A stretch of DNA of 45,440 nt from an uncultured Prevotella sp. Lineage in GTDB: Bacteria > Bacteroidota > Bacteroidia > Bacteroidales > Bacteroidaceae. Shown here piece by piece: positions 4,729-45,440 of this stretch (position 1 is the first letter of the stretch; the number at the start of each line of letters is the position of its first letter). Both the position numbers and the translations under genes were made by a program. The notes beneath the pieces were generated by a model. It searched no databases and was not told where the DNA came from. It was given only the letters and a program-made list of their open reading frames with translations. The stretch spans positions 1-45,440 of the forward strand of contig CAJJWN010000024.1 of NCBI GenBank assembly GCA_905196835.1. The letters run 5' to 3'.

Positions 4729-6447
4729 ATGAAACTAAGAAACATATACGGTCTGGCACTGTCAGTCCTTGCAGCGGGGGCGGCTGTCACCGCTTGTACG
4801 GACGACAACGACTGGACCACAGACCCTGCGTATGACAGGATGTTCGGCGTGAACAGCAACAAAATCTCCATCGAGACCGACCAGGAAGACCCCTCGACGG
4901 TAGGAGTTACGTTTACGCCTATCGAGGGTGCCGAATACTACGTCATAGAGGTAAGCACCGACAGCTTGTATGACGACATACCCATGGGCGGCGAGAACGC
5001 AACGGTGTACGGCGAGGACAAAAGCATAATCAAGTCGCCGGCGCAGCTTGAAAACATGCGCGAAGAGACCCAATACTACATGCGAATAAAGACCATGTCG
5101 TCAACCACGGCCGAGAGCCACTGGGTATATTACAACATGGGCGAGCCGTTCAAGACGCTCGGCATAATCTATGACGTGCCGTCGGCCGACATTCTCGAGG
5201 ACAGGATTACCCTTAGGTGGATAGCAGGCTCGGAGGTAACGCACATTACTTATACCACCACGGCCAACGGCGAGGAAATCACCGAGACGCGCCAGCTTAC
5301 CGAGGCGGAAATTGCAGCCTCGTCTTGCACCATCAAAGGTCTTGACCAAAACAAGACTTACAAGTTCGCCATCTACAACGGCGACGTGCTCCGCGGTACG
5401 AAGACCGTCAAGACGGCTAAGGCAATGCCTTGGGCTACCGTGCGCCAGGAACTTGGCGACGACGTTACGCAGATAGACCAAGACCTTATGGACATGCTCG
5501 CCCAGAAGGCTCTTGACATAATGGCGGCCGAAGGCAAAGACACCGCCAGCGTAACCATCGGCGTACCTGCCGGAAAGACCATGCCGCTCGGAACAACGGA
5601 AGAATCACTTAGTGTTCCTGAAGGAATTTCAGTTACATTCTTTGGAATGGCAGGAGAAGTGCCGACATTGCAACTGCACAAAGCACTGAAGGCTGACGGA
5701 CATCGTAACGGTGGCTACATCAGGTTTGAGCACATCAACGTTGACGGCATGTATAATGCAGAAACAGGAGATAAAGGATGTGAATATATATTCCAAGCTA
5801 AGAATGAATGCGATTTAGACTCTATCGTATTTATGGACAGTAATATATCTAATATAAACAAATCAATTGTTGCTTTGGAAGGCTCTTCTTCAGAGGCTGT
5901 CAGGCTTATAAAAATTGATAATTGTGTAATAACTAATCATGCAGGAGATTATGCGTTTATTAAAATCGACAAAGGCGGATGTACTGTTAATGATATAGAA
6001 ATCAAGAACTCGACATTCAACAGTATATGCCCAAATCCAGACAAAGATAAAGCCTTCATAGATTTGAATAACATTCCAAGTGCTGTAAATATCAATATTG
6101 AAAATTGCACATTCTATAACATTCTTGGAAAGGGTGCATTCCTTATTACCGATAAATCTCAAGAGAAGGCGGAAACAAGCACTATAAACGTTTCAATTTA
6201 TAGAGTTTTGTTTGCCAAGAATGCAGGTGAAAAAGCAAAAGGCTATCGTGGTGTAAACATAACAGCAACAAGTTCATATATGACAAGTGACTTCAAGCTG
6301 GATAAAAATTACGAGTGGGGAGTACAGTCATATAACGGCTCATCTTCTGACGTGTTTGAAGACCCTGCTACAGGCAACTTCACGTTGAAGGTTAACGACC
6401 TTATCAGAGACAAAGTAGGTGACCCACGTTGGTACACGACCCAATAA
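4729..6447 (+). CDS. PUL surface lipoprotein with FN3-like N-terminus and beta-helix-like C-terminus (DUF4957/DUF5123 type)
   Basis: Predicted third surface protein of the left PUL, in the position of SusE/F. The 572-residue product has a signal peptide ending AAVTAC (lipid Cys23). Residues about 35-225 look like two fibronectin-III-like beta-sandwich domains (YYVIEVSTDS, YYMRIKT; then ITLRWIAGS, TYKFAIYNG). The C-terminal half has repeated short strands with Asn, Ile and Cys (VFMDSNISNINKS, IKIDNCVITN, IEIKNSTFNS, INIENCTFYN), as in right-handed beta-helices, and ends GDPRWY, an ending I associate with DUF5123 proteins of Bacteroidetes pectin-type PULs. From about 5,600 to 6,300 the DNA is visibly AT-richer than both flanks. 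A polysaccharide-binding role is inference; catalytic residues of pectate lyases were not recognised. Confidence 0.75.
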   Translation: MKLRNIYGLALSVLAAGAAVTACTDDNDWTTDPAYDRMFGVNSNKISIETDQEDPSTVGVTFTPIEGAEYYVIEVSTDSLYDDIPMGGENATVYGEDKSIIKSPAQLENMREETQYYMRIKTMSSTTAESHWVYYNMGEPFKTLGIIYDVPSADILEDRITLRWIAGSEVTHITYTTTANGEEITETRQLTEAEIAASSCTIKGLDQNKTYKFAIYNGDVLRGTKTVKTAKAMPWATVRQELGDDVTQIDQDLMDMLAQKALDIMAAEGKDTASVTIGVPAGKTMPLGTTEESLSVPEGISVTFFGMAGEVPTLQLHKALKADGHRNGGYIRFEHINVDGMYNAETGDKGCEYIFQAKNECDLDSIVFMDSNISNINKSIVALEGSSSEAVRLIKIDNCVITNHAGDYAFIKIDKGGCTVNDIEIKNSTFNSICPNPDKDKAFIDLNNIPSAVNINIENCTFYNILGKGAFLITDKSQEKAETSTINVSIYRVLFAKNAGEKAKGYRGVNITATSSYMTSDFKLDKNYEWGVQSYNGSSSDVFEDPATGNFTLKVNDLIRDKVGDPRWYTTQ

Positions 6448-34727: not shown

Positions 34728-34800
34728 GGTGCCATAGCTCAGTTGGTAGAGCAAAGGACTGAAAATCCTTGTGTCCCCGGTTCGATTCCTGGTGGCACCA
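34728..34800 (+). tRNA. tRNA-Phe (anticodon GAA)
   Basis: 73 nt. The acceptor arm GGTGCCA pairs with TGGCACC, discriminator A. The D-loop contains AGTTGGTAGA, the anticodon arm AGGACTGAAAATCCT has GAA at 34761-34763, and the T arm contains GGTTCGATTCC. CCA is not encoded. An integrase remnant 250 nt downstream suggests its 3' end served as an integration site, but no second copy of the 3' end was found within the window. Confidence 0.97.
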
Positions 34801-34825
34801 CAGCAAAGAAAAGCAAAACAACGTA

Positions 34826-34864
34826 AAATCCTGATTTTCAACGAAAATCGGGATTTTTTATTTT
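34826..34864 (+). terminator. Terminator of the tRNA-Phe transcript
   Basis: A 13-bp stem (AAATCCTGATTTT with AAAATCGGGATTT, one G-U pair) and a T-rich tail, 26 nt after the tRNA. Confidence 0.8.
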
Positions 34865-35012
34865 CCCCAAAAACGCAAAAAAGTGCGGTTCGCGACCGTC
34901 TTTGGTGGAGCAAGAGGTGGAGCAAACGGGTGTTCCAAATATCTCCACCTTGAAAGAGTGCTTTTCGTTGATTCACAATATTTTGCATAGCGTCAAAACG
35001 GACTAGGATTCC

Positions 35013-35020
35013 TACATTTG
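35013..35020 (+). promoter_or_regulatory. -7 promoter box before the integrase remnant
   Basis: TACATTTG, 33 nt before the ATG of the integrase remnant. A TTTG lies 27 nt upstream, more than the usual spacing. Confidence 0.45.
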
Positions 35021-35053
35021 TCGAACTAATGTTTAACTTAAAAGTAGGAGAAA

Positions 35054-35854
35054 ATGAGACGAGATTCATTTAATGTGCTTTTCTTTATCAAGAAAACCAA
35101 GCTGCTGAAGAACGGAGAGGCTTCAGTATGTATGCGTATCACAGTCAATGGCGCAAGAGTAGAAACCAACATCCGCAAAAGCATTGAGCCTGTGTCGTGG
35201 AACCAGGCAAAGGAGTGTGCGAGGGGCAAAAGTCGCAAATCAACCGAGCTTAATAACTACATCGAGGAGAGCCGTATCAAACTCCACCGAATTTACACGC
35301 AACTTGAAGAGAATGGAGAACTTATCACTGCCCGAATATTGCAAGAAAAGTTCTTTGGAGTGGACAAAAAGGTGGAGCAAGTACGCTCCATCATTGGCAC
35401 TATGCGCGAACACAACGAGCAATGCCGAGCTTTGGTGGGTAAAGATTTTGCCCTAATCACCGTAAGACGCTACGAAAGTTGCACCCGCTATCTTGCTGAA
35501 CTTATCAAACTGAAATACGACAAAGAGGATTTGCCTATTACGGAGGTAAATGGCGAACTTGTGCGAGCCTTTGAGTTTTATTTGAAGACCGAGAAGAATT
35601 GTCAGCAGAATACCGTTATCCGCTATATGAAGTGCTTGAAAAAGATTATCAACCTTGCACTTGCCAACGAATGGATAGAGAAGAATCCTTTTGCAGGTAT
35701 TAAGTTTCACGAGAAAGAGGTAGTTCGCGAGTTCCTGACGATGGATGAACTGATGACAATATACCAAAAGGAGTTTTCGCTGCCTCGCCTTGCATTGGTG
35801 CGTGATGTATTTATCTTCGCTGCCTTCACAAATGTTGCACTAAATAAGATATAA
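35054..35854 (+). pseudogene. Tyrosine-type integrase of a Bacteroidales conjugative/mobilisable element, catalytic domain lost
   Basis: The 266 residues cover the N-terminal arm-binding domain (FNVLFFIKKTKLLKNGEASVCMRI..., about 1-100) and the SAM-like core-binding domain (about 110-215), then the first strands of the catalytic domain (FLTMDELMTIYQKEF, LALVRDVFIFAAFT). It breaks at about 35,832, just where related integrases continue FTGLAYxD and reach their first catalytic Arg; none of the R-K-H-R-Y residues is left. The following bases show no continuing integrase frame. It sits right after tRNA-Phe, as element integrases do. A deletion or a later insertion removed the 3' part, so it should be inactive. 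Confidence 0.9.
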
Positions 35855-36136: not shown

Positions 36137-36733
36137 ATGGAGATATTTCAGACATCTTTATTTCCTTCAAGAAAAGGAGATTTTAAACCAGATGAGTTTA
36201 AAAACGCAATCCGTGATACCCCATTTTTAGAATGCGTAAAGAATGGATTAAACGATGGCTTTCGTAGAATGCGAGAAGCTTTTTCGGCAGGTGATATGTC
36301 GATGCGGAATGAATCCAACTTTTTGCATGAGGCTATTTTTAATAGCATAAGGACTCAGATTGATACCTATATGCCAGATTGGGATGTAAGTTTTTCTACC
36401 AATAAGATTGGTTCTGAAAGATTGTTCTTTACATTTGGGGGCTATATCTTTATCCTGAAAATTACGGGGGCAAAAACTAATGACACTAAGCCGTCACGAT
36501 GTATTGAATACCAAGAAGCCGATAAGCATATTATCACTTTGGAATACACCTTAGATGACATGCGGGAATCAATACAATCTGCATATTTTCAATATAAAAA
36601 GGGCAAATCGTCAACTTACATTATGTCTGTTCCATTGCATCAGCCTTTTGAAATTCAAGAAGAAACTCAATCGGAAGATATAATAGAAGTGAAGAAGCCA
36701 ATACTAAAGGTTTCAAAGAAAAAAGCGAAGTAA
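36137..36733 (+). CDS. Unknown 198-residue protein paired with an XRE-ImmA/IrrE protein
   Basis: I do not recognise the family. The protein is soluble in appearance (no signal peptide or membrane helix), with a helical N-terminal half (FKNAIRDTPFLECVKNGLNDGFRRMREAF), a beta-like middle (VSFSTNKIGSERLFFTFGGYIFILKI, ITLEYTLDDMRESIQSAYFQYKKG) and a lysine-rich tail (VKKPILKVSKKKAK). It is the first gene of an operon, 3 nt before the XRE-ImmA gene. By analogy with two-gene modules in which an XRE-ImmA/IrrE protein controls a partner (RosmerTA is one example) it could be a toxin or effector; that is inference from position only. Confidence 0.8.
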   Translation: MEIFQTSLFPSRKGDFKPDEFKNAIRDTPFLECVKNGLNDGFRRMREAFSAGDMSMRNESNFLHEAIFNSIRTQIDTYMPDWDVSFSTNKIGSERLFFTFGGYIFILKITGAKTNDTKPSRCIEYQEADKHIITLEYTLDDMRESIQSAYFQYKKGKSSTYIMSVPLHQPFEIQEETQSEDIIEVKKPILKVSKKKAK

Positions 36734-36736
36734 AGT

Positions 36737-37807
36737 ATGAATCCATTTAATTATGAGAAGTTAGAGATAGCTCGATTACTCAGACAAAGGACTCAGAAAG
36801 ACGTTGTTAAAGACGTTGGAATCTCACAATCAACATTATCAAAAGCCGAACATGGGCTATTGGAATTGTCAGACGATATGATGCAGAAATTGTGTCAATA
36901 CTATGATATGCCTATTGATTTTTTTTCTGAAATGTATGAGGTTCCACCTGCAGGTTATCTATATTATAGACGGAAATTGACAATAACGAATAAAATAATA
37001 GATTCTTTCGTAGCGAAAGTACAAATTTTTAAGGCCATCATAGACTCCCTTATGCAGTCAGTTGAACTTCCAGACTATGCTTTAGATAACTATAGACCAA
37101 GCGAAGATTTATCTCCCAAAGAAATAGCGCATAAAATACGTTTCTCTTTAAAAGTCTTTCATGGCCCTGTCCCTAATCTGAGTACTTTATTGGAAAATAA
37201 TGGGATTGTGATAGTTCGGTTTGATTTTGGAACCGAAAAAATTGATGGGGTTTCGGCTATAACAAATGGAAATAGGAAGGTTATGTTTATTAACAGCCAA
37301 ATGCCAGATGATAGAATTCGTTTTTCTATGGCTCATGAATTAGGACATATTGTCATGCACATTGCGAATCCGCCAAAATCAAGCGAAGAAGCAGAAAGAG
37401 AAGCGGATGAATTTGCAACAGAGTTCTTAATGCCAGAGCTTGAAATACGCCCGATGTTAGAAAATTTAACAATTTCAACTTTAGCCTCTCTCAAAAGAAG
37501 GTGGAGAGTTTCCATGCATGCATTAGTAAGAAGAGCTAAAGATTTGGAAGTTATTAATAGCCAACAATATCGCAATATGCAAATTTATTTTTCAAAGAAA
37601 GGGTACACTAAAACAGAACCAATACAATTGCCAATTGAGCAACCTACAATTCTGAAAGAAACATTGCGATTATACAGAGATGAACTTGGTTATTCTGACC
37701 AAGATTTGATGAGTATAATGCATATAAACAAAAATGATTTTGTAGAATGGTTTGCACCACACCCTAAAATTATAAGATTTCAACCGATTTTTAATAAAAG
37801 AATTTAG
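36737..37807 (+). CDS. XRE-type regulator with ImmA/IrrE zinc metallopeptidase domain
   Basis: 356 residues. Residues about 8-62 are a helix-turn-helix of the XRE type (LLRQRTQKDVVKDVGISQSTLSKAEHG). Residues about 150-255 are the M78 peptidase domain with the zinc site HELGH at 200-204 and the third ligand in EREADEFATEFLMP. Proteins of this build repress a promoter and cut a regulator or antitoxin when a signal arrives, as in ICEBs1 ImmA. The C-terminal 100 residues are of unknown type. The gene probably autoregulates the promoter at 36084-36112. Strong AT bias and position next to element remnants point to horizontal transfer. Confidence 0.9.
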   Translation: MNPFNYEKLEIARLLRQRTQKDVVKDVGISQSTLSKAEHGLLELSDDMMQKLCQYYDMPIDFFSEMYEVPPAGYLYYRRKLTITNKIIDSFVAKVQIFKAIIDSLMQSVELPDYALDNYRPSEDLSPKEIAHKIRFSLKVFHGPVPNLSTLLENNGIVIVRFDFGTEKIDGVSAITNGNRKVMFINSQMPDDRIRFSMAHELGHIVMHIANPPKSSEEAEREADEFATEFLMPELEIRPMLENLTISTLASLKRRWRVSMHALVRRAKDLEVINSQQYRNMQIYFSKKGYTKTEPIQLPIEQPTILKETLRLYRDELGYSDQDLMSIMHINKNDFVEWFAPHPKIIRFQPIFNKRI

Positions 37808-38045: not shown

Positions 38046-38092
38046 CAGAAAGTGGAAGTTTGGGGATGACCTAATCTCCACTTTCTGTTTTT
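38046..38092. terminator. Terminator between the convergent 57-aa gene and the R-M operon
   Basis: An 11-bp stem CAGAAAGTGGA (38046-38056) with its complement at 38077-38087, then TTTTT. The R-M stop codon begins at 38093, just at the end of the T tract. Confidence 0.85.
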
Positions 38093-41000
38093 ACATTGGC
38101 TTTATCATCTTTTCAATGAAAGCTATTTCTTCATCGGTCAGATGGTATTTCAAATAAAGTTGTTGGTCTATCTCCAGGATGGATTTACTCCAATCAATGT
38201 CGCTTGCTTTTGTGAAATTTTGGAGCGGAACAAACGAATATACTTTACTTGTTGCATGCTGCGTATTCTTCTTTAGTAAAACAAAGAATCGTAAGAATGT
38301 TGTTTTAAGGTATTTGATGACATTCATACAATATTGTTTTTGGTCATTGGGAGCAATTACTAAATAGGTTTCACTACAACAGGTTTTTGGTTCACCTAAA
38401 AAAGGCTTTCCTATTACAAAATAAGGAAAATCACCTCGTTCCCCATAAGCATAAGAGATATAAACCTTATAGCAGTCTATCCATTTTGAATTTGATTTCA
38501 CTGTATTTTGTTCAATAAAACCATTATCTGGATAAGCATATATTTTTATCATATTCTCTGTTTGTAGTTTAGAAACATGCACATCGGTTGCAATACCAAA
38601 AGGTTTACGAGGACTAACTAAGTTTGAGAAGTTAATATCTTCACTAACTGCTACTTTTCGCAAGATTGATATAGCTTCGTTAAAACGAATAAATGTATTA
38701 TTACCTTTTTCAAGTAATGGACGCACAAGTTCATTTCGTTTCCCTTGTCTGTTTGTGATGATTTTGCAATTACCCTGATATTTTTTATCATATAGAAAAT
38801 AGCATATTCCTCCAGATATATCTATTCGAGGAAATACATCCGTTGCATCAAAATAGTCAACAAGTAATGATATTGATCTGTCCCTTAACATCTCATCCCT
38901 AAAATCGTCCAATCCTTTTCCTCCAGCATACCAACGTGCAGGCATAATCATGCTAATATACTCTGCTCTTAACTTTTTTGCAATATCCACAAATAGATTG
39001 TAAACTGGCTTTGCACTGGCACCAGCTCCTCCATCCATAATCTGATATGGTGGATTGCCAACTATCGCATTGAATTTCATATTGTCATCATCATTAGCTT
39101 TCCAGAACGAGCGTCCCTTTGCCATTTTTTCGATAAAGTTCTGGGGCTTGTTCTTGATTTGGTTGATTAAATCCTCGAAATGACGGGTGTTCACTTTGGC
39201 TTTGCGGAATCCCACAAGCGTCCGTTTGGTGATGCTTTTTGCCATCGGTGTCTTGCAGACCACGAAAATGTTTTCAGCAACGGTCTTGTCCCATACTGCC
39301 TGTTGCTCTTCAAGCGTATCGGCTGAAATGGTGCTGTCCTTTAGGCGTGCGCGGTAAATGCTGTAAGCCATATAGAGCGGATATAAACCCGACTTGGAAT
39401 TGATTTCAAGGATGCAGCTGTCAGAGGTGAACACTTCCTCAGTCACCTTGCCGTGGTCAATAAAGCGCGGTTCGTTAAGAGTATTTTCGTAATCCTTGTC
39501 ATAGAAGCAATAACCGCCTAAACAATCGCCCAAGTGCATATTCACCACACGCCACGGGGTAAGCACCGTTTCCTTGTCGGGATTGCGGAACGTGCTGAAA
39601 ATGTCCATGATGCGCCCGATACGCTCTTCCACACTCAGTTTGTCAGCCGCTTTCGCCATCGCACGGATGCGCTTGCCAGCGGCACGGAAGATGTCCGGGT
39701 CATAGTATTTCTTGAAGGCATTGAATTTCTGCTTGCTCACACCTTTGGGCATGAACTCCTCCCAGGAACGCGGGTCTATCTTCTCGGCGAAGTTGTCAAT
39801 GGTGATTTCCTCGTCCTCATCCTTCAGTTCCGCACCGTAAATGAGCAAGGGCATACGGATGGATATGCCACGGAGTATGGAGATAGCCGCTTCGCGGTTC
39901 TTCGTCTTCTTTTTCAGTTCCTCCAGCCTGCACTTCTCCTCCTCGGTCAGTTCCTTCTTAGGCTTTTTCTCCAGCTTTTCCTTTTCCTCGTATTCCTCTC
40001 CCGTCAACCCTTGGTTGTTGATGTCCACCTGATTGGTCTTGGGCATAGCCTTGGTCTGACCAATAATCTTTTTCAGGTCATCAAACTCCTGCAACTCCAA
40101 ATCGCCCAGTTTCAATAACTCATCATTGTAGAGGCTGTTGTCCTCGAATCCGTTGCGCACCACACGCTCCACATAGACCTTCTTCAACTGCTCCAGCATA
40201 CGAGGTACGTCAAACTTGTCCATGTGCGAGCCTTCGATGGAAATGACCGGGCAGAAGTTGAGGAAGTCGCCCATCGTCTTGCGGTCGTCCTGCGAGGTCT
40301 TGCCTGCCTTGGCGGAAATCTTGGCGGTCTCGGCAAGTACTTTCAGCGTGCGGTCGGGCGCGAAGTCGAACACGTAGCACTGCTCTTTCACCCGTCCGTT
40401 GATGGTGGCAGGTGTCTGCATGCGGAAGATGGTCTGCATGTAACTTGATGCTGCCGTGTTATACGAGCCGGAAAGCATGAACACGGCTGTCCATGCCGGA
40501 ACGCTTACGCCCGTGGTCAAGCGTCCGCAGGACAGGGTGATGGTGCGCGTCTGGTCCGGGTCTTTTCCGATAGCCTCATTTACCATCTCAAGCGCACCAC
40601 GGTTTTCCTCGTCCTCGTCGCCGTCACCCGCCACGTTTACGATGTGGAAATGTTGGAACACGGGATGCCGCTGCAACAATGCGCTCAACGCTTTTGCCTC
40701 TTTCACACCCGGCACCATCCACAGCGTATGGCGAAACACATTGCGGTATTCCTCGCTGGCGAAAGGATAACAACTTTCCTTGTCCTCTTTGGTAAGCAGG
40801 TTGAGGAAAGCGGAAACGTCACGTTCATGGATAAAGCCTCCGTCTTTGTTCACGCGGAAGAACTCACGGAAATTGAAAGCCACGTCCTCATCAACAAACT
40901 CTTTCAGCAAACGTCCGAGGTCGTAAGTGTAGATGTTCATGGCAGGCAACGCCGCATACGGGTTGGGGTCGCCGAAGTGGGTCTTGTCCCATTCCAGCTT

Positions 41001-42023
41001 GGCACGCTGCTCCATCACGTAGTCCCACGTGTAGATTTCATTCTCCTTGAAATCGTCCAGCAGGTTGAACGGTGTTCCTGACAACCGTAAAACTTTTGTA
41101 TCCTCCTTGACCAGTTCCGCCATCACCGCCTTGCCTAGTTCGGTCTGCGTCCCCTCGTGCGCTTCGTCCACGATAACCAAGTCCCAAGGTGTGGCGAACA
41201 CCTCATTGTTCTTGTCGAAGTTGCCGCCGACAAGTTCAGAGCCGCGCAAGTCCTGCATGGAGGCGAAATAGACATAGTGCAGTCCGCCAGCCTTTGCCCT
41301 GCGCTCAAGGTTTGCATGGCTTTCACCGTTGTTCTTCGAACCGTAAGCGAAGTCGTTGCGGTCATAGAATATCTTACCGAAGTCCTCGAACCATCCGCTG
41401 TCCACCACGGGGCGGTGGGTCAGGATGAGCGTCCGCCTGAAATCCATGTTCTTGACCACCTGCAAGGCGGAGAGTGTCTTGCCGAAACGCATCTTGGCGT
41501 TCCAGAGCATCTGGTTGCCTTTCCTGAACTGCCTTTCCGTCTTCTCAATGGCTTCCCGTTGTTCGGGGCGGAACACAATGGGGCTGCATCCGCGTATCAC
41601 CTCTCCCGGCAAAAGGGATTCCTTGCCCTCCTTGACGGCTGCAATGGCACGCTTTACGACATCAAGCGTGGTGATGAACCACTCGTTAGCCTTGTTCTCC
41701 TTGTCGAACACCTTCCTCTTCACGCCGGAACGTTCCAGCACGGCATGCACCTCCTTGTCGTTGAACGAGCGCAAGCCGTTACGGTTGTATAACGTCAGTT
41801 CGGTGTGTAACAGTTCGTAGCGTATTCCTGCGGTCTGCGTGTACTGGTTGATGCGCTTTCTTGCCGCCTCGTTCAGCGGCTTGCTGTTCGGTGCCAGCCC
41901 GATGACGCTCTCATCGTCACAGGTAGCCTCGCCTATCTTCAGGCAACCTTCGTGTGTAGCATCGTTGATGCGGAACACGTATATCAGCTTCAGTTTAAGG
42001 GAAGAAAAGTATTTCATAGGCAT
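38091..42023 (-). CDS. Single-chain restriction-modification enzyme: GIY-YIG-like nuclease, SF2 helicase, N6-adenine methylase
   Basis: 1310 residues. N-terminal domain about 10-115 (LKLIYVFRINDATHEGCLKIGEAT) resembles GIY-YIG/T5orf172 nucleases. Residues about 150-590 are an SF2 helicase: Walker A variant AKMRFGKT (Lys182), DEAH box VIVDEAHEG (286-289), motif III RLSGTPFN, motif V LTTGVSVPAW, motif VI QTIFRMQTPAT. Residues about 840-1000 are methylase-like: TPWRVVNMHL, a motif-I-like LEINSKSGLYP, and motif IV NPPY at 990-993 (Eco57I type). The last 300 residues should be the target-recognition domain and are encoded by visibly AT-richer DNA. The layout recalls Type ISP enzymes such as LlaGI but with another nuclease. 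ATG follows directly on the stop codon of the partner gene. Confidence 0.85.
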   Translation of the reverse strand: MPMKYFSSLKLKLIYVFRINDATHEGCLKIGEATCDDESVIGLAPNSKPLNEAARKRINQYTQTAGIRYELLHTELTLYNRNGLRSFNDKEVHAVLERSGVKRKVFDKENKANEWFITTLDVVKRAIAAVKEGKESLLPGEVIRGCSPIVFRPEQREAIEKTERQFRKGNQMLWNAKMRFGKTLSALQVVKNMDFRRTLILTHRPVVDSGWFEDFGKIFYDRNDFAYGSKNNGESHANLERRAKAGGLHYVYFASMQDLRGSELVGGNFDKNNEVFATPWDLVIVDEAHEGTQTELGKAVMAELVKEDTKVLRLSGTPFNLLDDFKENEIYTWDYVMEQRAKLEWDKTHFGDPNPYAALPAMNIYTYDLGRLLKEFVDEDVAFNFREFFRVNKDGGFIHERDVSAFLNLLTKEDKESCYPFASEEYRNVFRHTLWMVPGVKEAKALSALLQRHPVFQHFHIVNVAGDGDEDEENRGALEMVNEAIGKDPDQTRTITLSCGRLTTGVSVPAWTAVFMLSGSYNTAASSYMQTIFRMQTPATINGRVKEQCYVFDFAPDRTLKVLAETAKISAKAGKTSQDDRKTMGDFLNFCPVISIEGSHMDKFDVPRMLEQLKKVYVERVVRNGFEDNSLYNDELLKLGDLELQEFDDLKKIIGQTKAMPKTNQVDINNQGLTGEEYEEKEKLEKKPKKELTEEEKCRLEELKKKTKNREAAISILRGISIRMPLLIYGAELKDEDEEITIDNFAEKIDPRSWEEFMPKGVSKQKFNAFKKYYDPDIFRAAGKRIRAMAKAADKLSVEERIGRIMDIFSTFRNPDKETVLTPWRVVNMHLGDCLGGYCFYDKDYENTLNEPRFIDHGKVTEEVFTSDSCILEINSKSGLYPLYMAYSIYRARLKDSTISADTLEEQQAVWDKTVAENIFVVCKTPMAKSITKRTLVGFRKAKVNTRHFEDLINQIKNKPQNFIEKMAKGRSFWKANDDDNMKFNAIVGNPPYQIMDGGAGASAKPVYNLFVDIAKKLRAEYISMIMPARWYAGGKGLDDFRDEMLRDRSISLLVDYFDATDVFPRIDISGGICYFLYDKKYQGNCKIITNRQGKRNELVRPLLEKGNNTFIRFNEAISILRKVAVSEDINFSNLVSPRKPFGIATDVHVSKLQTENMIKIYAYPDNGFIEQNTVKSNSKWIDCYKVYISYAYGERGDFPYFVIGKPFLGEPKTCCSETYLVIAPNDQKQYCMNVIKYLKTTFLRFFVLLKKNTQHATSKVYSFVPLQNFTKASDIDWSKSILEIDQQLYLKYHLTDEEIAFIEKMIKPM

Positions 42024-43043
42024 TCATTTTAGGAGGTCGATAAAACGGATGCGTTTGCCTTTACGTCCTGTATGTGGGTCTTTGGAGCGCCAGTCCTTTA
42101 TGAGGCAGTAAGTGCCGTTGTGCCTGTAAATGTTGTCCGTCTTGCATCCCTCGCAAGGTGTGACGACCTTCGTATTTTCCCCGAAAAGTGACATCTCTGT
42201 ATGCACCTTGTTGTGGCAACTGTCAGGCACGACTCCTTTCAGTCCATCCATCTGCCATACGTTCCACGAAATGATGTAGGCGATGTAGTTGACGGACTTC
42301 GCCAACGGGTCTTTTCTGAACTTAGTACGGTAGTATTCAACAAAAGAGGCAAGCATGGATTCACGGGCAATAAGCAGGCTGTCGCCCTGCCATTCGTAGG
42401 CATAGAGGCTTTTGTAGGCTTCCTGTGCGGCTTCCAGCCATTCGCCGGAAGTCCCGGTATTTTCGCTGATAACACGCAGTTTGCGGTCAAGCAGTCCGAT
42501 ACGGTCAGAAAGCGGAACAACTGCGCCTGTGGTGGTGTCATAGCGGCTGACGATATAGGGTGCTTCGCCGCAGGTGATTTCAAGACGTGTGTCACGGACA
42601 TAATCCTTCCATGTCTTTCCTTCGGGGAAAGAAATTCTTTCAAGATTCGTTTTCCAACCGTGTGTACCGTCCTCTGACGTGTATTCTGTATTGAACACGT
42701 CTTTCCTGCCGAACCACGCCTCGTCAATCAGGTTGTTCTGCGCGTTGCACACCCATGCAGGGGTGAACACCTCCGCCATGTCGCGGACACGTGCCGACTG
42801 GGTGTCCTTGTGCTTCAGGACACGGGGCATGATGACCTGACCGTTGTTACCCGTGATGAGTTCGGGCAATATCGGGTCATGGTAGCCATACCCTTCACCG
42901 AGGTGTTCATAGTCGGAAGTCGCCCAGAAAATGTTGCACACGGCATCGCCCCTGCTCGTCGTATGGTCTTTGAGCAGGGTGGACAGCAATCCGGGGGAAG
43001 CCTGCAAGATGCTGTTCTCCAATATGTCGGCAGTTTCAGGCAC
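42024..43043 (-). CDS. Restriction-modification partner subunit with degenerate methylase motifs
   Basis: 339 residues, translated first; its TGA abuts the ATG of the large R-M gene, which points to coupled translation and a fixed ratio. It contains AEVFTPAWVCNAQNNLID (about 91-108), as in motif X of N6-adenine methylases, and LEITCGEAPYIV (154-165) in place of motif I, but no NPPY/DPPY motif. The C-terminal part has two Cys pairs (CHNKVHTE..., PCEGCKTD) and a basic end GRKGKRIRF. I take it as an accessory methylase or specificity subunit of the same system. Its start codon lies 20 nt from the left inverted repeat of a putative invertible promoter. Confidence 0.75.
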   Translation of the reverse strand: MPETADILENSILQASPGLLSTLLKDHTTSRGDAVCNIFWATSDYEHLGEGYGYHDPILPELITGNNGQVIMPRVLKHKDTQSARVRDMAEVFTPAWVCNAQNNLIDEAWFGRKDVFNTEYTSEDGTHGWKTNLERISFPEGKTWKDYVRDTRLEITCGEAPYIVSRYDTTTGAVVPLSDRIGLLDRKLRVISENTGTSGEWLEAAQEAYKSLYAYEWQGDSLLIARESMLASFVEYYRTKFRKDPLAKSVNYIAYIISWNVWQMDGLKGVVPDSCHNKVHTEMSLFGENTKVVTPCEGCKTDNIYRHNGTYCLIKDWRSKDPHTGRKGKRIRFIDLLK

Positions 43044-43063
43044 GTTGATACACTTTGGTTAAG

Positions 43064-43245
43064 GTGTATCTCCTGTCGGGAGAGCATAATACCTGATAAT
43101 CAAACCGTTTATTTCTCACTTGTAAAACAACAGCCGTTTCAATGCTACTTTAATGCTTGTCTGACGCATTTTTATGGAGTGCAAATTGCCCGTTTTTCAC
43201 AAAAATGTGTAATTTTGCATCCGATAGTGTATCTCCCGACAGAAG
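43064..43245. promoter_or_regulatory. Putative invertible promoter segment of the R-M operon (OFF orientation)
   Basis: Inverted repeats CTCCTGTCGGGAGA (43070-43083) and, reversed, CTTCTGTCGGGAGA (43232-43245) match in 13 of 14 positions and enclose 148 nt. Each repeat is itself partly palindromic (TCTCC/GGAGA in the left one), as core sites of tyrosine recombinases are. GTGTATCTCC also occurs at both ends. The enclosed promoter (43186-43217) points right, away from the R-M operon, while the left repeat is 20 nt from the operon's first ATG. No minus-strand TAnnTTTG box exists in the segment. An intact tyrosine recombinase gene is adjacent. Confidence 0.55.
43186..43217 (+). promoter_or_regulatory. 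Promoter inside the inverted-repeat segment, pointing right
   Basis: TTG at 43186-43188, a 21-nt spacer and -7 box TAATTTTG (43210-43217) followed by C. A transcript would start near 43225, within the edge of the right inverted repeat, and run antisense into the recombinase gene. No plus-strand gene follows. Confidence 0.6.
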
Positions 43246-43274
43246 TACCGTCATTGTTCCCAAACAACTTCCGA

Positions 43275-44483
43275 TTACAAGTCTTTCAGGATAAGGTAGT
43301 TCGCTTTGTCTATCACCGAACCGTCCAATGACGCAAGGTAGATGCGCGTGGTTTCCTCCGAATCATGTCCCATACCCTCGCTGATTACAGAAATCGGTAT
43401 GTTCTTGCTTTTGGCGATGCTTGCCCAAGAGTGCCTACTCACGTACATGGTAAGCGGCGCGGCAATGCCGCATAGTCGGGCAATCTCTTTCAGGTACTTG
43501 TTGATGCGGAACAGCGTACTCTTGTATTGACTGCGTAGCTTTTTGGAAGGCAGTTTTAGGATGGGGAGCAGGTAATCACCGGAACATCCTGCGGCATATT
43601 TCGCCACGGTTTCCTCCATGCATCTTTCCCACCTGATGTGGAGTTGCTGTCCGGTCTTGTGCCTGCGGTAACTCAATATGCCGTTCTTCAGGTCTGACTT
43701 CTTCAAATAAGCCATGTCAATGAACGACATTCCACGGGTGTAAAACGAAAAGAGGAACATATCCCTTGCCAGTTCCCAATGCGGCTTTCCCGTCAGGTCA
43801 AGTTCCTTGATGCGCCGGATGTCCTTCAGGGATATGGCGCGTTTCACGGTCTTGTCCATTCCCGTATAGACATGCCTGAAGGGATGCTTCTGTACGGTCA
43901 ACCCCTTTTCCACGGCACGGTTGTAGGTGGCGCGCAGGATACGCATATAGAAAGATACGGTATTCAGGGATGCGTCATTTGTTTTCAGCCATGCCTCGTA
44001 TTCCATTATCAAGTCCTCATCCATATCGTCCAACTGTATATCCTTGTTCCGCCTGAAACGCATGAAACTGGACAACGCAGACGCATAGGTTTCCGATGTG
44101 CGTTCCCTGCTCAGGCGTTTCAGTTGTCCGATGACAGAATCCATGAAATTGAAGAACGATTGCAGGCTTGTTTGTTTTCGATAACCGTCCACAATGGCAT
44201 CTGCCGAACAGACACCTTTGAGCGTCAGGTCGCGGATGATGTTCTCCAGCCGTAGTACGTCACGGCTGATGTGTTTCTGAATCATACGAAGGTGGTGCTT
44301 CCTGTCCGCATCAGCCCATGAAGGAATTGTTACGGACGATGTTCCGGCGTTCCACTCGCTTTCATGTACATGCAGGTCTGCCGTAATTTGGCGGACCGCG
44401 CGGTTGTGTATCACCTGATAATATATGCTGCCTTCCCTGCCGTCTGTGGCGGAAGGACGGAATTTCACTTTTACCGATGCCAT
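43275..44483 (-). CDS. Tyrosine site-specific recombinase (Bacteroides Tsr/integrase type), intact
   Basis: 402 residues. The N-terminal arm-type domain is about 1-100 (VKVKFRPSATDGREGSIYYQVI), the core-binding domain about 105-210, and the catalytic domain holds Arg250 (FYTRGMSFIDMAYL), Lys276 (RRHKTGQQ), Arg350 (YVSRHSW; a Tyr stands where the HxxR His is usual), His373 (GMGHDSEETT) and the nucleophile Tyr382 (RIYLASLD). Size and the FYTRGMSFIDMA block are those I associate with the chromosomal Bacteroides recombinases that invert promoters or shuffle hsdS genes. It lies 5 nt after the coiled-coil gene, so it may be transcribed with the element genes. It could alternatively be the element's integrase. 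Confidence 0.9.
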   Translation of the reverse strand: MASVKVKFRPSATDGREGSIYYQVIHNRAVRQITADLHVHESEWNAGTSSVTIPSWADADRKHHLRMIQKHISRDVLRLENIIRDLTLKGVCSADAIVDGYRKQTSLQSFFNFMDSVIGQLKRLSRERTSETYASALSSFMRFRRNKDIQLDDMDEDLIMEYEAWLKTNDASLNTVSFYMRILRATYNRAVEKGLTVQKHPFRHVYTGMDKTVKRAISLKDIRRIKELDLTGKPHWELARDMFLFSFYTRGMSFIDMAYLKKSDLKNGILSYRRHKTGQQLHIRWERCMEETVAKYAAGCSGDYLLPILKLPSKKLRSQYKSTLFRINKYLKEIARLCGIAAPLTMYVSRHSWASIAKSKNIPISVISEGMGHDSEETTRIYLASLDGSVIDKANYLILKDL

Positions 44484-44488
44484 TCACG

Positions 44489-45151
44489 TTACTTTTTGTT
44501 ATTACCATTTATTTGTGTCACTTTCAATTTCTCCTGCATCAGACTGTCCGACAAGGTCTTTAATCCTTTGTCGTAGCCGTCAGCTTCCTGTCGTATCCAG
44601 TCAATAGTTTCTTCGTTGCGGTGGATGTCGAACACGTCATTCAGCCAAAGGATATGCTTCGCATTACATCCTCCCCATGAACGGATGACACGGAACTTCA
44701 AGGCATCGTCCGCATACTGACGCTTGGATTTCCATAGCTCGATGTTTCCCCAGATGGAAAGGCTGCATACGATGCCCATGCCGACCAAAAGAGAAAACAC
44801 TTTGCTTGACCGGATGTCAAAGCTATGGCGGTGGATATGTTCCTGTGGCTCGGTATCTCGTTCTTCCGAACTTCGGGCAAACATCTCTTTTAAATCACGT
44901 AACAGATGCAGAATCCTGTTCGATGCGTAAACCTCCGCTTCCGCAAATTTGGTCAGCATGGCTTTGGTCTGTGCCTGATGCTCTTTTGCGGAACTGTCAA
45001 ACAGCTCCTTTACGGCTGTCAAATCCACCGCTGGAGGCAGTCCGCTTGCTTGGTCATTTGCTACTTTTGAAGCGTTCTCCAATTTCCCGTTGATACCTTT
45101 GAGATCATTCTTAATACCCTCGAAAAGTGCATATACTTCGTTATTATCCAT
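44489..45151 (-). CDS. Coiled-coil protein with one central membrane helix, mobile-element associated
   Basis: 220 residues. The first 110 are predicted helical with coiled-coil character (FEGIKNDLKGINGKLENASKV, QAQTKAMLTKFAEAEVYASNRI); one hydrophobic segment SLLVGMGIVCSLSIWGNIELW (about 121-141) follows; the last 80 residues are hydrophilic. No signal peptide. The family was not recognised by name. Its place between a small basic-tailed protein and a recombinase, with gaps of 2 and 5 nt, resembles mobilisation regions of Bacteroidales elements, where such proteins follow the relaxase gene. A mobilisation role is inference. Confidence 0.65.
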   Translation of the reverse strand: MDNNEVYALFEGIKNDLKGINGKLENASKVANDQASGLPPAVDLTAVKELFDSSAKEHQAQTKAMLTKFAEAEVYASNRILHLLRDLKEMFARSSEERDTEPQEHIHRHSFDIRSSKVFSLLVGMGIVCSLSIWGNIELWKSKRQYADDALKFRVIRSWGGCNAKHILWLNDVFDIHRNEETIDWIRQEADGYDKGLKTLSDSLMQEKLKVTQINGNNKK

Positions 45152-45153
45152 AT

Positions 45154-45429
45154 TCAGAATCTTATTTTACGTTGTTTCTTTTTCTTGTTCTTACGTTTTA
45201 ACTCTTCCTCAAAATAGTTCTCATCTGCCTGAGCATTTGTATTGTCCGGCATGAAAAGACCTATTGAGCTGCTGTACAAATCATCACTGCCTCTTGGTTC
45301 AAACTGTGATGTCTGTAACATCGGTTGTTCCTTGTCTATTGCTTGGTCGGACATTACCCTTTGTCGTTCATTGTAGCGGTTGGTGTTCAACGCCGCATCA
45401 ATTTTGGAATAGCTGAACCGCCTGGCCAT
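45154..45429 (-). CDS. 91-residue protein with lysine-rich tail, mobile-element associated
   Basis: Begins MARRFSYSKIDAALNTNRYN and ends in a strongly basic stretch (EELKRKNKKKKQRKIRF). No domain recognised. It is 2 nt before the coiled-coil gene and 11 nt from the window end; the ATG at 45429 gives a plausible start, but an earlier start outside the window cannot be excluded. Presumably part of the element's mobilisation operon, which continues to the right. Confidence 0.6.
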   Translation of the reverse strand: MARRFSYSKIDAALNTNRYNERQRVMSDQAIDKEQPMLQTSQFEPRGSDDLYSSSIGLFMPDNTNAQADENYFEEELKRKNKKKKQRKIRF

Positions 45430-45440
45430 TTTTGAACCGC

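Follow-up and report, generated by a model that had tools for sequence, protein, structure and literature searches.

In gut Bacteroidota, phase variation is known chiefly from capsules and surface proteins. In Mycoplasma pulmonis, restriction-modification (R-M) is reportedly also regulated by DNA inversion, in work ascribed to Dybvig and Yu 1994, but that organism belongs to a different phylum. In Bacteroides fragilis NCTC 9343, the large-capsule locus has an invertible promoter and the recombinase Tsr19 (PMC3090145); the locus described here likewise pairs a tyrosine recombinase with an invertible promoter placed to control an operon, but its cargo is R-M on a presumed mobilizable island instead of capsule synthesis. 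Bacteroidales ICEs carry antibiotic-resistance genes behind invertible promoters (PMC8748976). These too are mobile elements with highly variable cargo directly downstream of the invertible region, although that cargo is mainly resistance or glycan synthesis, as opposed to the R-M and Zorya systems found here. Inverton group 145 of gut strains comprises hsdS with a recombinase, a relaxase, and MobC (PMC11892184). In the present family of islands, too, recombinase and relaxase genes stand beside a restriction-linked inverton, with a complete MobC seen in the related locus L002, but in group 145 the inverted DNA includes part of hsdS and the presumed effect is a change of specificity, whereas here a promoter inverts. 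Invertible promoters controlling methyltransferases have been suggested as a common mechanism (PMC10333322), and a review states in general terms that phase-variable genes control R-M systems in Bacteroides strains (PMC11868660). Among the open-access literature matches listed, in their accessible parts, there was no description of promoter inversion before a Bacteroidales R-M or Zorya system, nor of a recombinase-inverton cassette that precedes such systems on mobilizable islands.

Our locus lies in a 45,440-nt stretch of DNA from an uncultured Prevotella sp. (contig CAJJWN010000024.1), analysed at full length and called the window below. We put at about 88% the probability that positions 43070-43245 are an invertible promoter that is flipped by the neighbouring recombinase and sets expression of the adjacent R-M operon, with the window in the OFF state. 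The tyrosine recombinase would presumably flip the segment at two short inverted repeats with the core CTGTCGGGAGA, probably often and within single clones. In the window orientation transcription from the promoter would run toward the 3' end of the recombinase gene, leaving the R-M genes behind it mostly silent; once inverted, the promoter would lie about 62 nt upstream of the GTG codon and transcribe the two-gene R-M operon. The unit would then be one version of a recombinase-inverton cassette placed before restriction and other anti-phage systems in Bacteroidales, and the comparative evidence is best read as phase-variable immunity on mobilizable islands. A switch similar to those of surface structures would thereby stand before intracellular immunity (several restriction types and Zorya II), frequently with a relaxase gene alongside. 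It would make sister cells differ in anti-phage immunity, would confound phage host-range and transformation tests, and would let R-M genes reach new hosts harmlessly.

The minus strand of the window carries, in order, the end of a MobA-type relaxase gene, a 220-aa gene, the recombinase gene, an intergenic stretch of 234 nt, and the two genes of the R-M operon. The relaxase gene runs off the window, leaving its C-terminal end (45154..45438; 63.8% to locus L002 and 67.0% to L095); L002 has a complete MobA and MobC, and its full-length MobA matches PF03432. The 220-aa protein (44489..45151) is, by comparison, conserved between MobA and the recombinase. The recombinase itself (402 aa; 43275..44483), the probable invertase of the segment, has an open frame with R250, K276, Y347, R350, H351, and Y382, which we take to be the catalytic set. 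The first R-M gene encodes a methyltransferase-like subunit of 339 aa (42024..43043; PADLOC MTase_II, E 2.3e-118) and the second a 1310-aa protein in which ResIII helicase and Eco57I methylase domains were recognised (38091..42023; PADLOC REase_MTase_IIG, E 2e-75). Both frames are open; domain search identified no nuclease domain in the R-M proteins.

Within the intergenic stretch, two 14-nt arms, complementary at 13 of 14 positions (93%), enclose 148 nt (43084..43231). The arm on the R-M (distal) side reads CTCCTGTCGGGAGA on the plus strand (43070..43083) and occurs also in L001, L002, and L114; the arm on the recombinase (proximal) side reads TCTCCCGACAGAAG on the plus strand (43232..43245). 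Between them lies a promoter of Bacteroidota type, TTG-21-TAATTTTG, on the plus strand (43186..43217), pointing away from the R-M operon: TTG at 43186-43188, a 21-nt spacer, and TAATTTTG at 43210-43217. The promoter call is a match to what we take to be the Bacteroidota consensus. The motif TAnnTTTG occurs once in the intergenic stretch, directed away from the R-M genes, and was not found there in the direction of those genes. These observations agree with a reading made earlier from the sequence only, which had described repeats matching at 13 of 14 positions, a TTG-21 promoter facing away from the operon, no minus-strand -7 box in the segment, and an intact recombinase next to it. That reading erred in placing an ATG start of the operon 20 nt from the repeat; the first codon is a GTG at 43043, 26 nt from the arm. 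The 339-aa gene starts with GTG in the window and in L114, and with ATG in L001-L004.

When the intergenic stretch was shuffled with dinucleotide composition preserved, 2 of 300 shuffles equalled the score of the repeat, so that the repeat by itself is no more than suggestive and only mildly unusual; since such single-sequence statistics are weak, the case rests on relatives. The locus has the parts of an invertible promoter: repeats flanking a promoter-bearing segment, an adjoining intact tyrosine recombinase and, between genomes, both orientations with unchanged flanks. In an hsdS-type specificity shufflon, inversion takes place inside the coding sequence of the specificity gene; the segment here is intergenic, and inversion leaves coding sequence untouched.

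R-M loci were gathered with the 339-aa protein, which matched 327 relatives among genome contigs (the best 80 were used) and 4 among viral contigs; a further 399 genomes, all from one family, were searched, and 52 of them were matched by the R-M gene. Of the resulting 98 non-redundant R-M loci, 25 have the homologous recombinase on the same strand and no more than 900 nt upstream, and none has it on the opposite strand. All 25 (L001-L004, L006, L014, L015, L017-L021, L025, L028-L034, L037, L108, L114, L132, and the window) have a repeat-flanked segment. The promoter points away from the R-M genes in 20 and toward them in five (L004, L015, L019, L032, and L114); because the loci are related, we do not claim that this bias is significant. 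L006 was oriented by eye, its automatic repeat call having fallen on an inserted repeat, and L021, counted here from the R-M loci, was removed by a length filter from the recombinase-set comparisons below. Within the invertible segment of L006 (5449-6001) there is an insert of about 300 nt rich in inverted repeats. The remaining 73 of the 98 loci have no recombinase directly upstream, and this R-M family can therefore do without the switch. L009, a locus that lacks this recombinase, has a perfect 26-nt inverted repeat before its copy of the R-M gene, within 350 nt upstream of position 6001, possibly a different inverton.

The opposite orientation in five of the 25 loci is the decisive evidence for an invertible promoter before the R-M operon. 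All comparisons of the two orientations are between different genomes or different islands. L114 is inverted relative to the window, L001, and L002: the inner segments of the window and L114 are 56.1% identical as they stand but reach 95.9% once one of them is inverted; the short flanks agree at 97.8% and 91.7%, and identity over 6.4 kb around the segment is 89.5%. The other sets are L004 against L003 (99.3% after inversion), L019 against L014 (98.1%), L015 against L018 and L037 (100% for L037), and L032 against its seven R-M relatives L028-L031, L033, L034, and L108 (91.0 to 94.5%). L015 (Bacteroides nordii) and L037 (Bacteroidaceae bacterium IMSAGC_004) were compared over 11 kb: of the 10,900 columns that lie outside the segment 11 differ, against 143 within it, and the segment is exactly inverted, with 192 of 192 bases equal after inversion. 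In the L014/L019 set, the OFF form belongs to Parabacteroides massiliensis and the ON form to Bacteroides faecalis; Leyella lascolaii khD1 holds two diverged islands in one genome, L002 in the OFF and L004 in the ON orientation. A repeat is present at 66 of the 88 recombinase loci; when these were compared all against all, 65 pairs reached at least 72% inner identity, and 19 of those pairs did so only with one segment inverted. The repeat has a variable spacer (TGTCGG, TGACGG, TGACAG, or TGGCAG), and in each of the seven nearest loci the two arms share the same one, which counts for inversion, as recombination between the arms requires it. Since relatives carry the segment flipped, the defence genes are probably switched by inversion. 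The sequence-only reading, which had proposed a search of relatives for the inverted form and would have yielded to its absence, is thus supported by five sets; its predicted leader of about 45 nt after inversion also fits, the box in the inverted L114 beginning 62 nt before the start codon.

A tyrosine recombinase beside short repeats is also what an integrating element would show, as such elements carry integrases, and the repeats could in principle be attachment sites, with the differences in orientation arising from rare integration or homologous recombination. We regard this as next to negligible: inversion appears in five separate locus sets, both flanks are the same in both orientations, and the presumed edge of the island is at a tRNA-Phe about 8 kb away. 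The identical flanks led us to reject the repeats as an attachment site. It is less far-fetched, yet still improbable, that some other recombinase of the cell inverts the segment, the neighbour being passive or the island's own integrase. Several related recombinases do occur per Bacteroidales genome: the six genomes positive at E <= 1e-60 contain 2 to 6 matches each. Against this, the recombinase stays beside the segment in the 25 loci, repeat sequences differ between recombinase groups, and the island has a separate integrase piece beside the tRNA. In the family of the neighbouring recombinase, our preferred invertase, R250, K276, R350, and H351 are present in all 88 members compared and Y382 in 87, with one gap; at position 347, 82 members have Y and six have H.

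The direction of the promoter in OFF loci, toward the 3' end of the recombinase gene, could also mean that it serves a plus-strand antisense transcript over that end and that its link to R-M is incidental. This is very improbable given two loci, L008 and L035, in which the recombinase is absent from beside the R-M genes and the promoter faces them. L035 has neither recombinase nor matching repeats upstream; 27 nt of its promoter core are identical to the inverted L032, at the same distance from the same R-M gene. L008 has kept a repeat-like site, and its genome gave no recombinase match at E <= 1e-60. Because both loci retain the promoter facing R-M, we assign the promoter to the R-M genes.

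If inversion sets R-M expression, as we propose, the question arises of how silent the OFF form would be. It could leak, because the R-M operon shares its strand with the genes for mobilization and the recombinase, and 42900-43500 yielded no terminator-like site. Read-through from those genes may even transcribe R-M in any case, inversion only adding to it; the short distance from the arm to the R-M start (26 nt) would also suit such tuning. We consider this unlikely, though it deserves to be taken seriously; the 20 of 25 loci in the away orientation are compatible with either low leak or periodic switching. Scans of the same interval for sigma-70 promoters and terminators gave no match (terminator-like sites in shuffles average 0.8). 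A minus-strand R-M promoter outside the segment, named earlier as evidence that would count against the switch, was accordingly not seen by simple scan, although one may still exist. In the nearest ON copy (L114/L143) the large R-M gene is cut to 1173 aa (L143 6961-11407) and followed by what is presumably a transposase gene; given the shortening, this copy may no longer restrict. In the leader, beside the R-M-side arm, there is a dyad, GATACACTTT/AAGGTGTATC (43047-43070), and in the ON form the arm region would, as judged by eye, also form a 10-bp palindrome; the two might give RNA hairpins ahead of the R-M start codon.

Convergent with the R-M operon, on the plus strand, is a gene for a 356-aa RmrA-like HTH/ImmA protein of the RosmerTA antitoxin family (36737..37807). 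The 198-aa gene directly upstream of it (36137..36733, plus strand) returned no family match and is a candidate RmrT toxin by position only. RosmerTA-like genes are placed alike in L004 (356 and 199 aa) and L003 (356 aa). Further out on the plus strand, a tRNA-Phe (34728..34801) marks where the presumed island would border the chromosome; beside it lies a 266-aa integrase piece with arm-binding and SAM-like domains (35054..35854), in which no catalytic domain was matched. The stretch 34728-35854 is the likely island edge; the other edge is beyond the window. The recombinase-inverton and R-M unit looks like a passenger on a mobilizable island inserted beside tRNA-Phe. When 501 bases spanning the segment were searched against plasmids, two weak matches resulted, both under the recombinase end; the R-M protein matched 17 plasmid records, none of which reached 60% identity or came from Bacteroidota.

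The cassette is found in front of other defence systems as well. In the 399 genomes, 88 recombinase places were located in 68 genomes at E <= 1e-125. A separate protein search with the recombinase, in which at least 7923 of 7999 scored candidates passed, added nothing further. The best 67 of the 88 places have defence genes next in 28 cases and other genes in 35, and four run off the contig; the best 30 include 25 with defence genes, four with other genes, and one contig end. Cargo classes were assigned by BLASTP against representatives that PADLOC and Pfam had identified. The 28 defence cargoes are Eco57I type (11), three-gene methylase (5), PLD-helicase with type IIG (4), type ISP (4), type III (2), a DrmD-like helicase (1), and Zorya II (1); the others include kinase/FHA genes, polysaccharide genes, and further operons. 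Some more distant recombinases precede genes that we take to be capsule loci. A repeat downstream of the recombinase was found in 41 of 41 defence rows and in 24 of 43 others. An L002-like relaxase upstream was present in 25 defence rows, missing in 11, and cut off in five; for other cargo the numbers were 5, 32, and 6. The set behind these relaxase counts over-represents this R-M because of how it was assembled, and the counts would overlook distant relaxases. On a recombinase tree of 83 rows (built by a quick method, without bootstrap), cargo class needs 21 changes, against a minimum of 7 and a shuffled mean of 36.7; cargo is therefore clustered and yet often swapped. The promoter match fails in some other defence cassettes, which counts against the switch reading: no match was found in L107 or L157, and L173 has matches on both strands. 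A TAnnTTTG match in L155 was not trusted, its segment being oriented like those of L107 and L157, which lack the match. In L185 (5971-9865), Zorya II (ZorA, ZorB, and ZorE) follows the cassette, with the promoter in the away orientation; compared with the R-M locus L014, the segment is 77.9% and the flank 87.8% identical.

Closely related cassettes with different cargo lose DNA identity close to the cargo-side repeat. In four sets of islands identity ends within 8 nt of it: at +2 nt for the Eco57I loci L028-L031, L033, L034, and L108 against L156, at -2/0 for L018 and L037 against the type ISP locus L146, at +1 mutually for L014, the Zorya locus L185, and L183, and at +8/+6 for L148 against L149. 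Thirteen of the 14 different-cargo pairs with at least 83% identity fall in these four sets, the exception being L167/L174 at +60. When all 109 pairs that differ in cargo are counted, identity stops no more than 8 nt from the arm in 16, fails to reach it in 90, most of them diverged, and passes it in three (L092/L096 by 17 nt, L163/L167 by 72-74, and L167/L174 by 60), whereas in 62 of 76 homologous-cargo pairs identity continues more than 100 nt past the arm. Leaders at the cargo-junction loci are 11-53 nt long where the start is clear, and because they are so short the precision of the junctions suggests exchange at the repeat without proving it.

We tentatively raise, as a rather doubtful extension, a mobile immune switch of the Bacteroidales: the cassette would be separable from both mob genes and cargo, the cargo-side repeat would serve as the exchange joint, perhaps through the recombinase acting between the repeats of different islands, and a mostly OFF state would ease entry. 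An R-M island in that state would enter an unmethylated host without cutting and later turn ON in some cells, and unassigned operons that occupy this slot would become candidate new defence systems. Two such operons, in L165 (5965-12733) and L183 (774-7229), stand behind a similar cassette and consist of genes of about 400-450, 130-150, 500-530, and 1130 aa; both are candidate defence systems. Two of the L165 genes were tested and gave no PADLOC match, and the L165 operon includes a weak tubulin-like match.
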